From Arthrobacter agilis (lineage in GTDB: Bacteria; Actinomycetota; Actinomycetes; Actinomycetales; Micrococcaceae), in contig NZ_VHIM01000004.1 of assembly GCF_006494655.1 (NCBI RefSeq), forward strand, positions 62,001-126,000: a DNA stretch of 64,000 nt, written 5' to 3'. The notes under the pieces are model-generated. The model was not told the DNA's origin and did not search any database. It saw nothing but the letters and a program-made list of their open reading frames with translations. Position 1 is the first letter of the stretch. Each line of letters opens with the position of its first letter. Made by a program: the position numbers and the translations under genes. Of the stretch, positions 37,294 through 59,392 are shown one piece after another.

Positions 37294-37908
37294 ATGACCG
37301 TCGCCGGAGCCTCGCCATCCCCCACCGCGCGGAGAGGGAGACCCGGCTACGACCAGCAGTCGGTCCTCGCCGTGGCCGTGGCGGCTTTCAACCGGTACGG
37401 CTACGAGGCCACCTCGATGGGCATGCTGGCCGAGGAACTAGGCATCAGCAAGTCGGCGATCTACCACCACGTCCCGTCCAAGGGTGACCTGCTGCGGCTC
37501 GCCCTCGACCACGCCCTCGGCGGCCTGGAGTCCATCCTCGACGACCCCCGCGCGGGCGAGGGCGCCGCCGATGCCCGTCTCGAATTCGTCCTCCGCGGCA
37601 CCATCGCCGTGCTGACGGAGCGGCTTCCCTTCGTCACCCTGCTGCTGAGGCTGCGCGGAAACACGGAGATCGAGAGGGAAGCCCTCGAACGCCGTCGGAC
37701 CTTCGACCGGCAGATCGCCGCGCTCGTCGATGCGGCGCGTCAGGAGGGCTCCATCCGCGACGACATCGACCCGCGAACCACCACGCGACTCATCTTCGGG
37801 ACCATCAACTCGATCGTCGAGTGGTACCGGCCCGGAGGCCCGCTCACCGCGGACAAACTGGCCGACGACGTCATCCTGATGGTGTTCGACGGCCTGCACC
37901 GCCGCTGA
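37294..37908 (+). CDS. paaR: TetR-family regulator of phenylacetate degradation (PaaR type)
   Basis: This 204-aa protein has a TetR helix-turn-helix (about residues 23-65: VLAVAVAAFNRYGYEATSM, LAEELGISKSAIYHHVPSKG) and a C-terminal ligand domain with ILTERLPFVTLLLRLRGNTEIE, the pattern of TetR/PaaR and acyl-CoA-sensing regulators. It lies between the two paa blocks. Boxes of the same sequence occur before paaA, paaJ and its own gene. Phenylacetyl-CoA is the inferred effector. I start at ATG 37294 because the operator covers the upstream part of the frame. Confidence 0.85.
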   Translation: MTVAGASPSPTARRGRPGYDQQSVLAVAVAAFNRYGYEATSMGMLAEELGISKSAIYHHVPSKGDLLRLALDHALGGLESILDDPRAGEGAADARLEFVLRGTIAVLTERLPFVTLLLRLRGNTEIEREALERRRTFDRQIAALVDAARQEGSIRDDIDPRTTTRLIFGTINSIVEWYRPGGPLTADKLADDVILMVFDGLHRR

Positions 37909-37942
37909 CCGGGGCCCGTCCGGCTCTTCCGCGGCGTCGTTC

Positions 37943-38256
37943 GCTCCCACGCGCCGGCGCCTTGAGTGGGAATGTTCGAACACTCCCACCCACACAGGCA
38001 CGAAGTGGGACACTGCCACACGTCCGACGGCGATCAGGCGCCGCTCCCACGCGCCGGCGCCTCGGATGGGAATGTTCGAAAACTCCCGCCCACGCAGGCA
38101 CGACGTGGGACACCGCCGCACGTCCGACGTCGATCAGCGCCGCTCCCACGCACCGGCGCCTCGAATGGGAATGTTCGAACACTCCGCCCACCGAGGCACG
38201 GAGCGGGACTCTGCCGCACGTCCGACGTCGATCAGGCGTCTCTCCCACGCACCGGG
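37943..38256. repeat. tandem array of about 100-bp palindromic repeats (three copies plus a partial)
   Basis: Three near-identical units start at 37943, 38043 and 38142 (100, 99 and 99 bp). A fourth begins at 38241 and decays after about 15 bp. Each opens with GCTCCCACGC(G/A)CCGGCGCC, has a palindromic core GGGAATGTTCGAA(C/A)ACTCC about 30 bp in, and ends with CACGTCCGACG(T/G)CGATCAG. Within a unit TCCCACG near the start can pair with CGTGGGA about 60 bp later, enclosing the core, so each copy can form a nested hairpin. The copies differ at scattered positions and the unit is not a multiple of three, so it is not coding. This fills the gap between the TetR gene and the DUF559 gene. Confidence 0.92.
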
Positions 38257-38314
38257 TGTCCACATAGCGCTTGTCCCGACGCCGGACGTACCGCATGCTG
38301 ACCAAGCTGACCCC

Positions 38315-39187
38315 ATGGATATTGTTCGGTTGCTGACGGAGCGCGGTGGTTCCGCACGCGCCAGGGATCTCGTCGCCGCAGGAGCAAGCGGCTCGGCTCT
38401 CACGAGGGCCTGTCGGCAAGGAGACGTCGTCCGGGTCGTGCGCGGTGTGTACGCGCTTTCTGAACGGGACGAGGACGCACTCACGGCGCTGCGCGTCGGA
38501 GCTCACCTCACATGCATCAGCGCCGCCGTGCAGCGGGGGCTGTGGGTGCTGCGCGCACCCGGGTTGGTCCATGTCGCCGTCGATCACGGCCGGCCGCTCG
38601 GCTCCGACCGGCTTCGCAGACATCGATGGGAGGGACCTGTCTCGGCGTTGACATTTTGCGTGCACGCGGTCCGCTGCCTCCCCGAACTCGACGCCCTGTG
38701 CATCGTCGAGTCCGCCGTCGTACTCGGGCAGGTGCGCCTGGGCGACCTACGGACGCACGCAGATCGACCGCGGGCACGCGCCCTTCGCACCGTCGTCGAG
38801 CTCATCGACCCTCACGCGCAGTCCATTCTCGAGACCGCAGCCCGGTACCTCCTGGTACAGGCCGGTTTCACCGTGGCATCCCAGGTGCACGTTCCTGGCG
38901 TCGGTCGGATCGATCTCTTCGTCGACGGCGTCCTCGGGATCGAAGTAGACGGACGCCACTTCCACAGCGACCGTCGTGAATTCGAGGAGGATCGACGCCG
39001 ATGGAACCTCCTGACCGCTCGCGGCATCCCGATCCTGCGCGTCACCAGACAGCTTCTTCTCGGCGAACCCGGCCGCTTCGTCCTCGTGATTCGCGCCGCC
39101 CTGGCGGCACAGCAGGCGTCCAGACCCAAGGACTCGCCTGCCAGCATCCCAGTGGCTCCGACGTCGCGAGGACCTGTCGCGCGATGA
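38315..39187 (+). CDS. AbiEi-like/DUF559 nuclease-fold protein
   Basis: This 290-aa protein has an N-terminal winged-helix of the AbiEi antitoxin-like kind (residues 1-50: VRLLTERGGSARARDLVAAG, VVRVVRGVYAL). A C-terminal DUF559/Vsr-like endonuclease fold follows (about 190-265), with VGRIDLFVDGVLGIEVDGR, FHSDRREFEEDRRRWNLLT and GIPILRVT. The D...E-V-D sequence matches the PD-(D/E)XK active site. Such genes are frequent singletons in actinobacteria and their role is not known; defence or repeat maintenance has been suggested for relatives. It is bracketed by repeats sharing one palindromic core. ATG 38315 is chosen because the longer frame runs through the repeat array. Confidence 0.8.
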   Translation: MDIVRLLTERGGSARARDLVAAGASGSALTRACRQGDVVRVVRGVYALSERDEDALTALRVGAHLTCISAAVQRGLWVLRAPGLVHVAVDHGRPLGSDRLRRHRWEGPVSALTFCVHAVRCLPELDALCIVESAVVLGQVRLGDLRTHADRPRARALRTVVELIDPHAQSILETAARYLLVQAGFTVASQVHVPGVGRIDLFVDGVLGIEVDGRHFHSDRREFEEDRRRWNLLTARGIPILRVTRQLLLGEPGRFVLVIRAALAAQQASRPKDSPASIPVAPTSRGPVAR

Positions 39188-39316
39188 TGAACGATGCGGT
39201 CCGCTGGTCCGTGGTGCGCGGCTCAGCGGACCCTGCGACCCTGCGACCCTGGGCCCTCGTCGACCACACCATCCACTCGCCCGCCAAGCGCCCGGCGACG
39301 CGCCCATCGCCGCCCG

Positions 39317-39352
39317 GCAGGGATGGGAATGTTCGAACATTCCCATCCCTGC
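39317..39352. repeat. 36-bp perfect palindrome sharing the core of the upstream repeats
   Basis: Two 18-nt arms meet without a loop at 39334/39335, centred on GTTCGAAC. The inner 20 bp, GGGAATGTTCGAACATTCCC, match the core of the 37943-38256 units, but here the symmetry is complete and extends through GGGAT...ATCCC. It lies 130 nt after the DUF559 gene and 60 nt before the paaZ stop. Confidence 0.95.
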
Positions 39353-39411
39353 GATTCCAGCGCGGGATCGACGGACCGATCGCTCCGAGTCGTCCCCCGG
39401 CAGGAACGGGG

Positions 39412-41499
39412 CTACTTCTGCACGAGGGTCAGGACGTCGTAGGTCGCCACGATCTCGTCGTCCTGGTTGTGCAGCACGGCGTCCCAGGCGACCTCCCCGT
39501 ATTCGTCCGTCTCCCGCGGCGTGATCCGCTTCGCCGTGAGCGTCACCCGGATCGAGTCGCCCGCGGCGACCGGCGTGATGAAACGCAGGTTCTCCAGGCC
39601 GTAGTTGGCCAGCACGGGTCCGGGCTCGGGATCGACGAACAGCCCCGCACCCCAGGAGAGGAGCAGATACCCGTGTGCCACGATGCCCGGGAAGAACGGA
39701 TTGGCGGCGGCGGCCTCCTGGTTGGTGTGCGCGTAGAAGGTGTCACCCGTGGTCTCGGCGAAGGCGCTGATATCCGCCAGCGTGACCTGGCGGAGGTCGG
39801 AACGGACGCTGTCGCCGATGCGTAGCGTCGCCAGGTCCTTGCGGAACGGGTGGACGTCGTCGAACCGGCGGTCGGCACCCGTGTGCCACTCCCCCGTGAT
39901 GCTCGTGAGCATGTTCGGGGACCCCTGGACGGCGGTGCGCTGCATGTGGTGCAGCACGGACCGCATGCCGCCGAGCTCCTCGCCGCCGCCCGCGCGTCCC
40001 GGCCCGCCGTGCACGAGGTGCGGGACGGGCGAGCCGTGGCCCGTCGAGGAGCGCGCGTCCTCGCGGTTCAGGATCAGGACACGGCCGTGGTGCGCGGCGA
40101 TGCCGAGGACCAGCTCCTGCGCGACGGCGGGATCGTTGGTGCAGACCGTGGCGACGAGCGATCCCGATCCGAGGGCCGCGAGGCGGACGGCGTGCTGGAC
40201 GTCGTCGTACCCGATCACCGAGGCAACCGGACCGAAGGCCTCGACCGAGTGCAGCGCGCCGGCCTCGACGTCCTTCCAGGTCAGGAGCACGGGCTCCATG
40301 AAGGCCCCGTCGGGCGCCTTGCCGGACGTGTTGTCCCCGAGGACGACGTCGGGCGCGTCGAGCGAGCCGAAAGCGAGGGACGCACCGCCGTCGAGCAGTG
40401 CGCGCACGGCGTCCTGCACCCCCTCGAGCTGGCCGAGGGAGGCAAGCGCTCCCATCGTGACGCCCTCGGCACGCGGATCCCCGAGTGTCACCCGTTCCCG
40501 GATGCGGTCGCCGGCCGCACGGACGACGTCCTCCACGAGGGCCTCGGGCACGATGGACCGGCGGATGCTCGTGCACTTCTGGCCCGCCTTGACCGTGATC
40601 TCGGTGACCAGTGACTTCACGAAGGCGTCGAACTCGGGGGTGCCGGGGACGGCGTCGGGGCCGAGGATCGCGGCGTTCAGCGAATCCGTCTCGCACGTGA
40701 AGCGGACGCCGCCGCGGGCGATCGACGCGTGCGACTTGAGGTGGTTGGCCGTGGAGGCAGACCCCGTGAAGGACACGAGGTCGCGGTAGTCGAGGTGGTC
40801 GAGGACGTCGCGTGCCGGTCCGGAGATGAGCTGCAGCGCGCCCTTGGGCAGGATCGCCGAGCCGATGATGAGCTTCACGACGGCGGCGGTCAGGAATCCC
40901 GTGGGGGTCGCGGGCTTGACGAGGGTCGGCACGCCGGCGAGGAACGCGGGGGCCAGCTTCTCGAGCATCCCCCAGACGGGGAAGTTGAAGGCGTTGATCT
41001 GCACGGCCACGCCGGGGATACGCGTGTGGATGTGCGTGCCGAGGAAGGAGCCGTCCTTGGAGAGCACCTCGGGCGGTCCGTCCACGATCACGTGCGAGTT
41101 CGGGAGTTCGCGGCGGCCCTTGGACCCGAAGGTGAAGAGCACGCCGATGCCGCCGTCGATGTCCACCATGGAGTCGATCCTCGTGGCGCCGGTCTTCGCG
41201 GACAGCTCGTACAGCGGCTCGCGGTGCGCGTTGAGGTACTGCGCGAGCTCCTTGAGCTTGAGGGCACGCTCGTGGAACGTGAAGCGGCCCAGCTCGGCCT
41301 GCCCGGTGGTGCGTGCGAAGCCGATGGCAGCTGCGGTGTCGAGCCCCGCGGTGCTGACGATCGCGAGTTCCTCGCCGGTGCTGGCATCCCGCACCACGGT
41401 CCCGTCGCCGTCGGCCGCGGAGCGCTCGGGCGTCCACCAGGCGTCCTCGATGAAGCTGGGGACGACGTCGATCTGTACTCGTTCCGGGGCGGTTGTCAT
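39412..41499 (-). CDS. paaZ: bifunctional oxepin-CoA hydrolase / 3-oxo-5,6-dehydrosuberyl-CoA semialdehyde dehydrogenase PaaZ
   Basis: The 695-aa protein joins an aldehyde dehydrogenase domain (to about residue 520; catalytic cysteine in KAGQKCTSIRR, oxidoreductase Glu in RFTCETDSLN) to a C-terminal MaoC-type hotdog hydratase (about 550-690; DTFYAHTNQE and FFPGIVAHGYLLLSW). The hydratase opens the oxepin ring and the dehydrogenase oxidises the resulting aldehyde. It is the last gene of paaJ-paaF-paaH-paaZ; its ATG overlaps the paaH stop. Confidence 0.95.
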   Translation of the reverse strand: MTTAPERVQIDVVPSFIEDAWWTPERSAADGDGTVVRDASTGEELAIVSTAGLDTAAAIGFARTTGQAELGRFTFHERALKLKELAQYLNAHREPLYELSAKTGATRIDSMVDIDGGIGVLFTFGSKGRRELPNSHVIVDGPPEVLSKDGSFLGTHIHTRIPGVAVQINAFNFPVWGMLEKLAPAFLAGVPTLVKPATPTGFLTAAVVKLIIGSAILPKGALQLISGPARDVLDHLDYRDLVSFTGSASTANHLKSHASIARGGVRFTCETDSLNAAILGPDAVPGTPEFDAFVKSLVTEITVKAGQKCTSIRRSIVPEALVEDVVRAAGDRIRERVTLGDPRAEGVTMGALASLGQLEGVQDAVRALLDGGASLAFGSLDAPDVVLGDNTSGKAPDGAFMEPVLLTWKDVEAGALHSVEAFGPVASVIGYDDVQHAVRLAALGSGSLVATVCTNDPAVAQELVLGIAAHHGRVLILNREDARSSTGHGSPVPHLVHGGPGRAGGGEELGGMRSVLHHMQRTAVQGSPNMLTSITGEWHTGADRRFDDVHPFRKDLATLRIGDSVRSDLRQVTLADISAFAETTGDTFYAHTNQEAAAANPFFPGIVAHGYLLLSWGAGLFVDPEPGPVLANYGLENLRFITPVAAGDSIRVTLTAKRITPRETDEYGEVAWDAVLHNQDDEIVATYDVLTLVQK

Positions 41500-47772: not shown

Positions 47773-49310
47773 CTCGACAATACGACACCCACCTTGCCGG
47801 CGTCGGGCTCCGCGGAGTCGGGGGACGCCTCGTCCTCGGCCTGCCCGCGGCCCGCGGCGTCAGCGTCAGCGTCAGCGTCAGCGTCAGCGTCAGCGGGGAT
47901 CGTGTTCGACGCGGCCAGGCGTGCGTACCAGAGAGCGCTGGCCTTGGGAGTGCGCTCCTGGGTCTCGTAGTCCACCCGCACCAGGCCGAAGCGCTGGTGG
48001 TACCCCCAGGCCCACTCGAAGTTGTCCAGCAGGGACCACGCCAGATAGCCCCGCAGGTCCACGCCGTCGTCGATCGCGTCCTTCATCGCCCGCACGTGGA
48101 CGTCGAAGAAGGACAGCCGCTCCTGGTCGTCGACGAACCCCGCCTCGTCCGGGGAGTCGTCGTAGGCCGCCCCGTTCTCGGTGATGTAGATCGGGATTCC
48201 CGCCGGCCCCGTGTACTCGTGCTGCAGCCGGTTCAGCAGTCGGCGCAGCCCGTCGGGCTGCACTTCCCAGTCCATGGCGGTGACCGGCAGACCGCGCGGC
48301 ACCGAGCGTACGCCGTGGGCGGCGACGTAGGGCGAGGACACCGGCCGTTCGAGCGGCGCGTGGCCCTCCTGCGGCGCGGACCCGCCCGACGGCGTCCTGG
48401 TCACGGCCTCGCCGTGGTAGTAGTTCACGCCCAGGACGTCGATCGGGGCCGAGATGATCTCGAGGTCGCCCGCGCGGACGTGGTCGGTCAGGCCCAGGTG
48501 CCCGACATCGCGGAGGACATCCTCCGGATAGGACCCGCGCAGCACCGGGTCCAGGAAGATCCGGTTGAACTGTCCGTCGATGCGACGCGCTGCATCGCGA
48601 TCGGCGTCGCTCTGCGGATCGAGCGGGTCCGGCACCGTGAGGTTCAGGGTGATCCCGAGCGTGGCCTCGGCGTCCCGGCGCCGCAGCTCCTGCGTCGCCA
48701 GCCCGTGGCCGAGGAGGAGATGATGCGCCGCCGCGAGTGCCGCCATCGGCTCCTGCCGCCCCGGCGCGTGGACACCGGCCGCGTAGCCGAGGAAGGCCGC
48801 GCACCACGGTTCGTTCAGCGTCGTCCAGATCCGCACGCGGTCTCCGAGCGCCTCGTGCAGCACGGCTGCGTACTCGGCGAAGCGGTAGGCGGTGTCCCGG
48901 TTCGTCCACCCTCCCTTGTCCTCCAGGGCCTGCGGGAGGTCCCAGTGGTACAGGGTGAGCCAGGGCTTGATACCGGCTGCCAGCAACTGGTCCACCAGGT
49001 CGGAGTAGAAGCGGATTCCCTCGACGTTCGGGGTCACGCCGTCCGCCATGCAGCGGGACCACGACGTCGAGAATCGGTAGGCCTGCAGGTTGAGGTTCTT
49101 CATCATGGCGACGTCGTCGGCCGACCGGTGGTAGTGGTCGCACGCCACGTCGCCGTTGTGTGCATCCGCCACGGCTCCCGGGACCCGCGAGAAGGTGTCC
49201 CAGATGGAGGGCCCCCTGCCGCCCTCGTCCGCCGCGCCCTCGATCTGGTACGCGGCCGTCGCTGCTCCCCAGAGGAAACCCTCGGGGAAGGTGATGTCCT
49301 TGCTGCTCAT
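47769..49310 (-). CDS. bglC: GH1 beta-glucosidase, cellobiose-hydrolysing
   Basis: This 513-aa cytoplasmic GH1 enzyme has FPEGFLWGAATAAYQIEGA at its start, the acid/base glutamate in WTTLNEPWCA, the nucleophile in IYITENGAAYDD and the aglycone/glycone block SLLDNFEWAWGYHQRFGLV. It splits cellobiose and short cello-oligosaccharides to glucose. The last 40 residues or so form a low-complexity acidic tail containing an Ala-Asp run coded by a 6-bp tandem repeat. It sits between cebG and cebR, all coupled by 4-nt overlaps. Confidence 0.94.
   Translation of the reverse strand: MSSKDITFPEGFLWGAATAAYQIEGAADEGGRGPSIWDTFSRVPGAVADAHNGDVACDHYHRSADDVAMMKNLNLQAYRFSTSWSRCMADGVTPNVEGIRFYSDLVDQLLAAGIKPWLTLYHWDLPQALEDKGGWTNRDTAYRFAEYAAVLHEALGDRVRIWTTLNEPWCAAFLGYAAGVHAPGRQEPMAALAAAHHLLLGHGLATQELRRRDAEATLGITLNLTVPDPLDPQSDADRDAARRIDGQFNRIFLDPVLRGSYPEDVLRDVGHLGLTDHVRAGDLEIISAPIDVLGVNYYHGEAVTRTPSGGSAPQEGHAPLERPVSSPYVAAHGVRSVPRGLPVTAMDWEVQPDGLRRLLNRLQHEYTGPAGIPIYITENGAAYDDSPDEAGFVDDQERLSFFDVHVRAMKDAIDDGVDLRGYLAWSLLDNFEWAWGYHQRFGLVRVDYETQERTPKASALWYARLAASNTIPADADADADADADAAGRGQAEDEASPDSAEPDAGKVGVVLSR
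47857..47892. repeat. hexanucleotide tandem repeat within bglC
   Basis: Six perfect copies of GCGTCA encode an alternating Ala-Asp run in the C-terminal tail of the beta-glucosidase. The unit is two codons long, so slippage changes tail length without a frameshift. Confidence 0.95.
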
Positions 49311-59298: not shown

Positions 59299-59363
59299 TC
59301 CTCAATATCGGTCCTCGGTATCGGTCTTCAGTGTCGATATTCAGTGTCGATACTCAGTGTCGA
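59299..59363. repeat. five tandem copies of a 13-bp repeat
   Basis: Units of the form TNCTC(A/G)(G/A)T(G/A)TCG(A/G) start at 59299, 59312, 59325, 59338 and 59351; the last three share TTCAGTGTCGA-type sequence almost exactly. They lie between the terminator and the ccsB stop, in untranslated DNA that is AT-richer than its surroundings. Confidence 0.85.
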
Positions 59364-59392
59364 TCCGGTCCGTCGAGGCTGCACAGCTACTC

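Follow-up and report, generated by a model that had tools for sequence, protein, structure and literature searches.

The window, by which we mean the whole 64-kb stretch of DNA that was analysed, contains a nuclease gene on the forward strand (38315..39187, 290 aa) that lies between the gene for a TetR-family regulator on its left (37294..37908, forward strand) and, on its right, a long reverse-strand frame that has no domain call and that we take from its sequence to be PaaZ-like (39412..41499); these neighbours are context and stand outside the system proposed below. A tandem array of palindromic repeats (37942..38255) occupies the DNA upstream of the nuclease gene. We describe this AbiEi_4/MTES_1575 gene as bracketed because a near-perfect copy of the repeat unit, overlooked in the original prediction, sits 3' of it at 39302..39367. 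Homologues back the ATG at 38315 as the start of the gene; a longer frame from 38066 is also present.

The nuclease and its relatives

The protein has an AbiEi-like wHTH and a second AbiEi-like domain (approximately residues 1-170), followed by an MTES_1575/EDxHD-like nuclease domain (approximately residues 170-270). Pfam gives AbiEi_4 at 31.2 bits, above the cut-off of 25, and MTES_1575 (PF18741, residues 179-249) at 37.3 bits, just below the cut-off of 38.2, and the AbiEi models of PADLOC also match the protein. AlphaFold2, given an alignment of 34 sequences, predicted the fold with high confidence (pLDDT 87.7, pTM 0.81); its top match in Foldseek is 6y8q, the AbiEi antitoxin of S. agalactiae (191 alignment columns, TM 0.51 on target), and its third is 3r3p, the catalytic domain of I-Bth0305I (prob 1.0, TM 0.78 on target, E 2.3e-3). 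The sequence profile agrees weakly with these fold matches (3hrl 8.2e-4, 3r3p 0.038, 6y8q 0.15). Among the candidate active-site residues, E173, E210 and D226 are invariant in the sequences of 38 proteins and D200, D212 and H217 are nearly so. In the model, then, an antitoxin of the AbiEi type is joined to a homing-endonuclease domain of the EDxHD type. An HUH/Y1 tyrosine transposase was not found, the Pfam matches being MTES_1575 and AbiEi_4 only and the folds those of AbiEi and I-Bth0305I, and no AbiEii toxin gene adjoins the nuclease gene, whose neighbours are the TetR gene and the PaaZ-like frame.

The nearest named relatives of the protein are from Arthrobacter and are at most 65% identical to it, which makes Arthrobacter or a near relative the probable source of the window. 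A phage or plasmid origin was rejected: viral contigs held no confirmed relative and plasmids two weak ones. The genome has two further members of this nuclease family (L006 on C41 and L007 on C44, about 35% identity), paralogues that are flanked by unrelated repeats of their own (49 bp at 84% and 88 bp at 82%), with 41- and 39-bp tandem repeats in addition. Relatives in G004, G007, G019 and G024, as well as one of those in G017, match as two pieces in different frames and appear to be broken; around the apparently broken gene of G004 the bracketing palindromes are still there.

Structure of the repeat units

Tandem Repeats Finder assigns the array a period of 100, 3.2 copies and 88% matches, with a score (481) that is the highest of its nine rows in the window, and a separate repeat search gave spacings of 98-100. 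The core TGGGAATGTTCGAACA, at up to three mismatches and with both strands counted, matches eight times in the window against 0.18 expected, a count that none of 100 shuffles equalled. On this evidence the tandem palindromic repeats of about 100 bp noticed in the original prediction are real. Each period consists of a nested palindromic unit of about 66 bp and a similar linker of 33-34 bp, so the statement that the units are contiguous and lack spacers was right in part only. Within the unit, the outer arms TCCCAC (left) and GTGGGA (right) are each separated by a gap from a central palindrome around GTGGGAATGTTCGAACACTCCCAC, and the linker follows the right arm. Unit 1 (37945..38010) has its outer arms at 37945-37950 (TCCCAC) and 38005-38010 (GTGGGA) and its central palindrome at 37967-37988; unit 2 (38045..38110) has its centre at 38067-38088 and is decayed on one side; unit 3 (38144..38208), with its centre at 38166-38187, has CGGGA as its outer right arm. 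The larger TCCCAC...GTGGGA hairpin frame that had been described thus holds for units 1 and 2 and differs on the right in unit 3. The decayed fourth copy amounts to the left outer arm of a unit, its first 14 or so bases (38243..38256). The downstream unit (39302..39367) includes a perfect 36-bp palindrome at 39317-39352 and folds strongly as a single DNA strand (z -4.89); the three units of the array fold moderately (z -1.80, -1.15 and -2.27).

Several familiar identities for the array were rejected. CRISPR, tRNA or a known RNA was set aside, since Rfam gave no match in the window at its gathering score and no tRNA genes were found there. An intrinsic terminator was rejected because a simple scan of 37800-39500 found no terminator-like site with a T-run. 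The LexA/SOS box of actinobacteria is GAAC-N4-GTTC and the order in the core, GTTC-GAAC, is the reverse, so this too was set aside. Decay of a simple tandem repeat was rejected because the unit recurs 3' of the gene, in the intergene between the groEL-like and RNase J-like genes described below, and in relatives. The window also has two small tandem repeats, GCGTCA (6.5 copies, 100%) at 47857-47895 and TTCAGTGTCGATA (2.9 copies, 96%) at 59327-59364.

The four-half-site geometry is common to the unit alignments. Over 37 dispersed units from the genus (the 38 classified below minus the one from the window's own genome), 87% of the cells in the nested stem are paired, and both sides of the stem have changed in 62 cells against 25.5 in shuffled data, a value matched in none of 500 shuffles; the unit rows are related, so this figure is not a probability. 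Sliding the partner arm abolishes the signal, and G-U pairs are seen. Palindrome correction during replication could yield the same covariation. A pair of side hairpins in place of the nested stem was rejected, the 9 both-side cells being no excess over the 11.7 found on shuffling. By eye, no conserved end tag of the GTAG (or CGTC) type was found in two unit alignments.

Repeats around nuclease genes and elsewhere in the genome

The genus has 21 orthologous nuclease loci at about 50% identity or more, each from a different genome, and we compared them for the core TGGGnnTGTnnnnACAnnCCCA at up to two mismatches. This core was present on both sides of the gene at eight loci, among them that of the window, on one side at four and on neither at nine, and some of the nine core-less loci carry palindromes of other sequence. 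Unit pairs surround the nuclease gene in G000, G014, G028, G031 and G035, for example. The centre of the unit differs among the orthologous loci (TTCGAA, TCTAGA, TCCGGA).

Bracketing was then scored with a test that seeks a repeat common to the upstream and downstream flanks and assumes no motif. By this measure 37 of 73 loci were above 15.9, a score reached by 1.4% of 215 neighbouring ORFs, and 36 were not. When a simple gene caller was used to confine the flanks to intergenic DNA, 37 of 48 loci exceeded the 95th percentile of 47 control genes and 25 the 99th; against 33 unit-free control genes, which partly share stretches with the set of 47, 38 of the 48 exceeded the 95th percentile (ten did not) and 30 the maximum. 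When unit-bearing controls were kept (62 in total) the numbers fell: 22 of the 48 loci then exceeded the 95th percentile and no locus the 99th, because other genes in the unit-rich genome G281 are also bracketed. There (L225, L227 and L228) soil-type units are found around amylase-like, glycosyltransferase-like and inositol-phosphatase-like genes. With 60 shuffles per locus, p was at most 0.05 at 21 loci in each of three sets, one of the family (29 loci), one of a soil genus (27) and one class-wide (26). The class-wide set comprises 24 loci from other families, one paralogue from the window's own genome and one locus from the same family, two loci having been dropped as too short; 17 of its 26 members beat all 60 shuffles. 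Set against 644 mismatched flank pairs, 17 of these 26 were above the 95th percentile and one above the 99th, a threshold that related genomes probably raise.

In ten examples that were read, the repeats were unrelated in sequence between lineages and several had the same paired half-site layout. The nucleases of soil Arthrobacter, for instance, sit within arrays of GGACATG[CT]CC half-sites around the palindrome TGGACATAnnnGCAnTATGTCCA. When crude motif labels were placed on the nuclease tree, repeat type B was clustered and type A was not (8 changes, 8.6 when shuffled). Repeat types vary between nuclease lineages on sequence comparison.

The nuclease gene is flanked by the TetR gene and the PaaZ-like gene at 13 of 62 named loci. 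At 12 of 30 loci in the genus the same two genes are 31-223 bp apart with the nuclease absent, the distance here being 1.5 kb, and four of these 12 genomes (G014, G023, G028 and G033) have the nuclease elsewhere. None of the 12 nuclease-free TetR-PaaZ sites has a strict-pattern unit match, and the gene and its units therefore appear to have been gained or lost together. At one of them (L165 in G003, with an interval of 223 bp) a different, GC-rich tandem repeat was seen by eye. In G012, G031 and G035 (L178, L184 and L183) the nuclease, beside the PaaZ-like gene, points the other way, as if inverted between its palindromes.

The original prediction had asked whether copies of the core, counted genome-wide, cluster near DUF559 genes. 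Searched with the 22-base core at up to three mismatches, the genome of the window (3.24 Mb, 48 contigs) has five places, and four of them are at the nuclease gene: three in the array and one in the downstream unit. The fifth lies between two genes that, from their translations, are presumably groEL-like and RNase J-like; a looser half-core search produced three weak extra places (2 mismatches in 15 bases) that were left uncounted. Across the genus, the pattern TGGGANTGTYYRRACANTCCCA at up to two mismatches has 63 sites in 17 of 38 genomes, 48 of them away from the nuclease, and a reversed control pattern matched one genome among the 38. Each of the 17 unit-positive genomes holds 1-11 strict-pattern sites, looser copies being uncounted.

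We classified 38 of the 48 dispersed units by their neighbouring genes: 21 are between convergent genes, ten are in a +/+ and four in a -/- arrangement, two are in a doubtful gene call, one has an unknown gene on one side and none is between divergent genes. The dispersed copies are mostly at the 3' ends of genes. In a background of 53 the numbers are 22 convergent, 17 +/+, 7 -/- and 7 divergent, so that the shortage of divergent sites is weak (0/35 against 7/53, Fisher 0.039) and the surplus of convergent ones is not significant (Fisher 0.13). Many dispersed copies have a counterpart at the same position in other species (the longer flank pieces are 76-96% identical); the locations of the units are therefore old, recent movement is not seen, and the impression that the repeats are expanding and diverging gains no support from this comparison between species. 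The signal of concerted evolution is mixed: when G026 is compared with G028, orthologous cores resemble each other more closely than paralogous ones do, and when G031 is compared with G037 or G035 the reverse is true.

The soil-type palindrome, at up to two mismatches, is found in seven of 25 soil genomes, with 5-48 strand-matches in each among the matches listed. In 20 stretches from two of the soil genomes the palindromes are often in tandem, at spacings of 95-220 bp and commonly 103-128. The 26 soil unit clusters comprise 12 convergent, five -/-, five +/+ and two divergent cases and two in doubtful calls, against a background of 15, 8, 10 and 5, and avoidance of promoters is not seen among the 24 classified (2/24 divergent against 5/38, Fisher 0.70).

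Units and nuclease tend to occur in the same genomes. When the soil genomes are ranked by their nuclease match, seven of the top eight have soil-type units and none of the 17 others does (Fisher 1.7e-5, with a cut set post hoc); with the cut placed at a wide E-value gap the numbers are 7/12 and 0/13 (0.0016). The eighth best-match genome, G330, has a palindrome with a variant centre, as seen by eye. In the window's own genus 14 genomes have both, three have units only, seven have the nuclease only and 14 have neither (Fisher 0.0035, with a short fragment in G002 left out of the nuclease count), and both tables are confounded by shared ancestry. The three of 17 unit genomes that have no close nuclease orthologue and the seven of 21 nuclease genomes that lack this type of unit count against the pairing. 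The orphan copies are the dispersed units of G021, G026 and G037. In relatives, then, the copies are dispersed yet linked to the nuclease family, and therefore the contrary outcome named in the original prediction, a core scattered with no link to DUF559 genes, did not occur. The opinion that nothing in the neighbouring genes explains the repeats has been reversed, the next gene now being their likely partner, and the earlier interpretation as a whole (a DNA substrate, an RNA array or a binding platform) is partly supported.

Possible roles of the nuclease and its repeats

Our preferred reading, which we hold with somewhat more confidence than doubt, is that the AbiEi-EDxHD nuclease and its cognate compound palindromic repeat form a system like that of REP and RAYT but built on an unrelated enzyme; the novel part would be the partner enzyme. 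From the bracketing of the gene, the class-wide sharing of flanks, the dispersal of the units, their covariation and the predicted fold we infer that the protein binds and cleaves the repeat. The AbiEi wHTH, probably as a dimer, would recognise the unit by its GTGGGAnTGT half-sites, and nicking or cutting of the unit, perhaps as an extruded hairpin, would fall to the EDxHD-like domain. Repair of such breaks could duplicate units in tandem, and the same repair could seed copies elsewhere and keep the copies matched to the enzyme. The adjacent units may, in addition, govern expression of the gene. The orthologous positions of the units and the mixed concerted evolution speak against mobility, so the units may now serve the gene as an operator or the chromosome as a 3'-end structure, with the nuclease keeping them matched.

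Regulation alone might account for the array if the units were binding sites for autorepression by the AbiEi wHTH, the array being a multi-site operator, the dispersed copies regulated or decoy sites, and the nuclease inactive on them. AbiEi antitoxins do autoregulate via inverted repeats (PMC7319586, in part), several relatives have a shared repeat some 85-170 bp before the start codon, and the soil clusters are not clearly below background between divergent genes; but a unit also sits 3' of the nuclease gene, the own-genus dispersed units are absent from the divergent intergenes where operators are expected (a weak result, as given above), and the arms beyond the core covary although double-stranded binding does not need them. 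We think an operator of this kind unlikely, though its chance is appreciable. Distinctly less credit goes to the proposal that these are REP-like elements of the ordinary kind, or bidirectional hairpin terminators, that lie at 3' ends of genes and are made in some other way, with the nuclease gene merely among them. It draws on the 3'-end placement of most dispersed copies (21/38 convergent, not significant against background), on the strong hairpins of some units, on the three genomes that hold copies without a close nuclease and on the other bracketed genes of G281. It is at odds with the recurrence of flank sharing, with unrelated repeats, in other nuclease lineages and families, with the location of 4/5 own-genome copies at the nuclease gene, with the results of the terminator scan and the Rfam search, and with the 12 genomes in which the nuclease-free TetR-PaaZ site has no strict-pattern unit.

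The covarying nested stem, the 3'-end placement and the G-U pairs would also suit a structured RNA (a 3'-UTR stabiliser, a processing site or a small RNA), in which case the protein, if involved, would cut RNA. Because a palindrome folds on either strand, the covariation cannot separate RNA from DNA; Rfam gave no match, and the nearest solved relatives of the domain are endonuclease-like and include a DNA homing endonuclease, so we regard a role in RNA as very unlikely. Quasi-palindrome correction during replication is known in general, and a mutational origin of this sort would keep the units symmetrical with no need of function, the link to the nuclease being the hitch-hiking of a long-lived insertion. 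The age of the unit locations is in keeping with it, as are the nucleases of G004, G007, G019 and G024, whose matches are each split between two frames; the sharing of flanks across the class by different repeats and the shared four-half-site geometry are left unexplained, and we give this origin scarcely any weight.

The preferred reading, of a nuclease that acts on its own palindromes, can be extended to a second kind of REP across the Actinomycetes, in which each AbiEi-EDxHD lineage makes, spreads and homogenises its own four-half-site element through hairpin cutting and repair copying, as an independent homing-endonuclease answer to RAYT and REP. We advance this extension tentatively and consider it rather doubtful. 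REP-like palindromes are common in bacteria and, to our knowledge, RAYT and its close kin are the only dedicated enzymes known for them. A second, unrelated class of enzyme with its own palindromes would suggest that the arrangement of nuclease plus palindrome arose more than once, and it would offer the first functional lead for the stand-alone AbiEi/MTES_1575 genes of the Actinomycetes. One small protein and a defined substrate of about 70 bp would then be enough to test the spread and upkeep of REP-like repeats. Among the matches listed in a search of the openly licensed PMC literature, outside which most subscription papers and preprints lie, no paper ties DUF559, MTES_1575 or AbiEi nucleases to repeats.

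Known systems resemble this one in separate respects. A survey of REP sequences has one Arthrobacter in its table, and the words nuclease and RAYT are absent from the available part of its text (PMC12306157). The window protein resembles the MTES_1575/Vsr-like REase family (PF18741) over residues 179-249, at a score just short of the cut-off; the protein for which that family is named differs in being a multidomain HEPN fusion, for which the available part of the source mentions no repeats (PMC3710099). The AbiE type IV toxin-antitoxin systems share the AbiEi fold, to judge from the top structural match of the model, and in them AbiEi recognises inverted repeats in its own promoter (PMC7319586, in part), whereas here no AbiEii is beside the gene, a nuclease domain is fused to the antitoxin-like part, and the repeats are also downstream and dispersed. 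The target on which I-Bth0305I dimerises is nearly 60 bp long (PMC3943268, in part); the modelled catalytic fold is similar, and by analogy a long target would be expected for the protein in the window. Unlike the EDxHD homing endonucleases, however, the gene here sits between units and interrupts none of them, no intron was seen in the Rfam search, and the DNA-binding part is AbiEi-like.

The closest parallel is with RAYT (the REP-associated tyrosine transposases) and REP, a group that includes REPtrons and BIMEs. The enzyme here is AbiEi plus an EDxHD/MTES_1575-like domain, whereas RAYT is an HUH tyrosine transposase; the GTAG tag is absent and the unit is a nested palindrome of four half-sites; and copy number, usually over 100 there, is 1-11 strict-pattern sites here. 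RAYT genes are nonetheless bracketed by inverted REPs (PMC2817692, in part), and the two arrangements have in common a chromosomal gene between palindromic repeats, further copies that are scattered through intergenic DNA and also clustered, classes of repeat that vary with the enzyme, and compensatory changes in the stem (PMC2817692 and PMC3733652, each in part).
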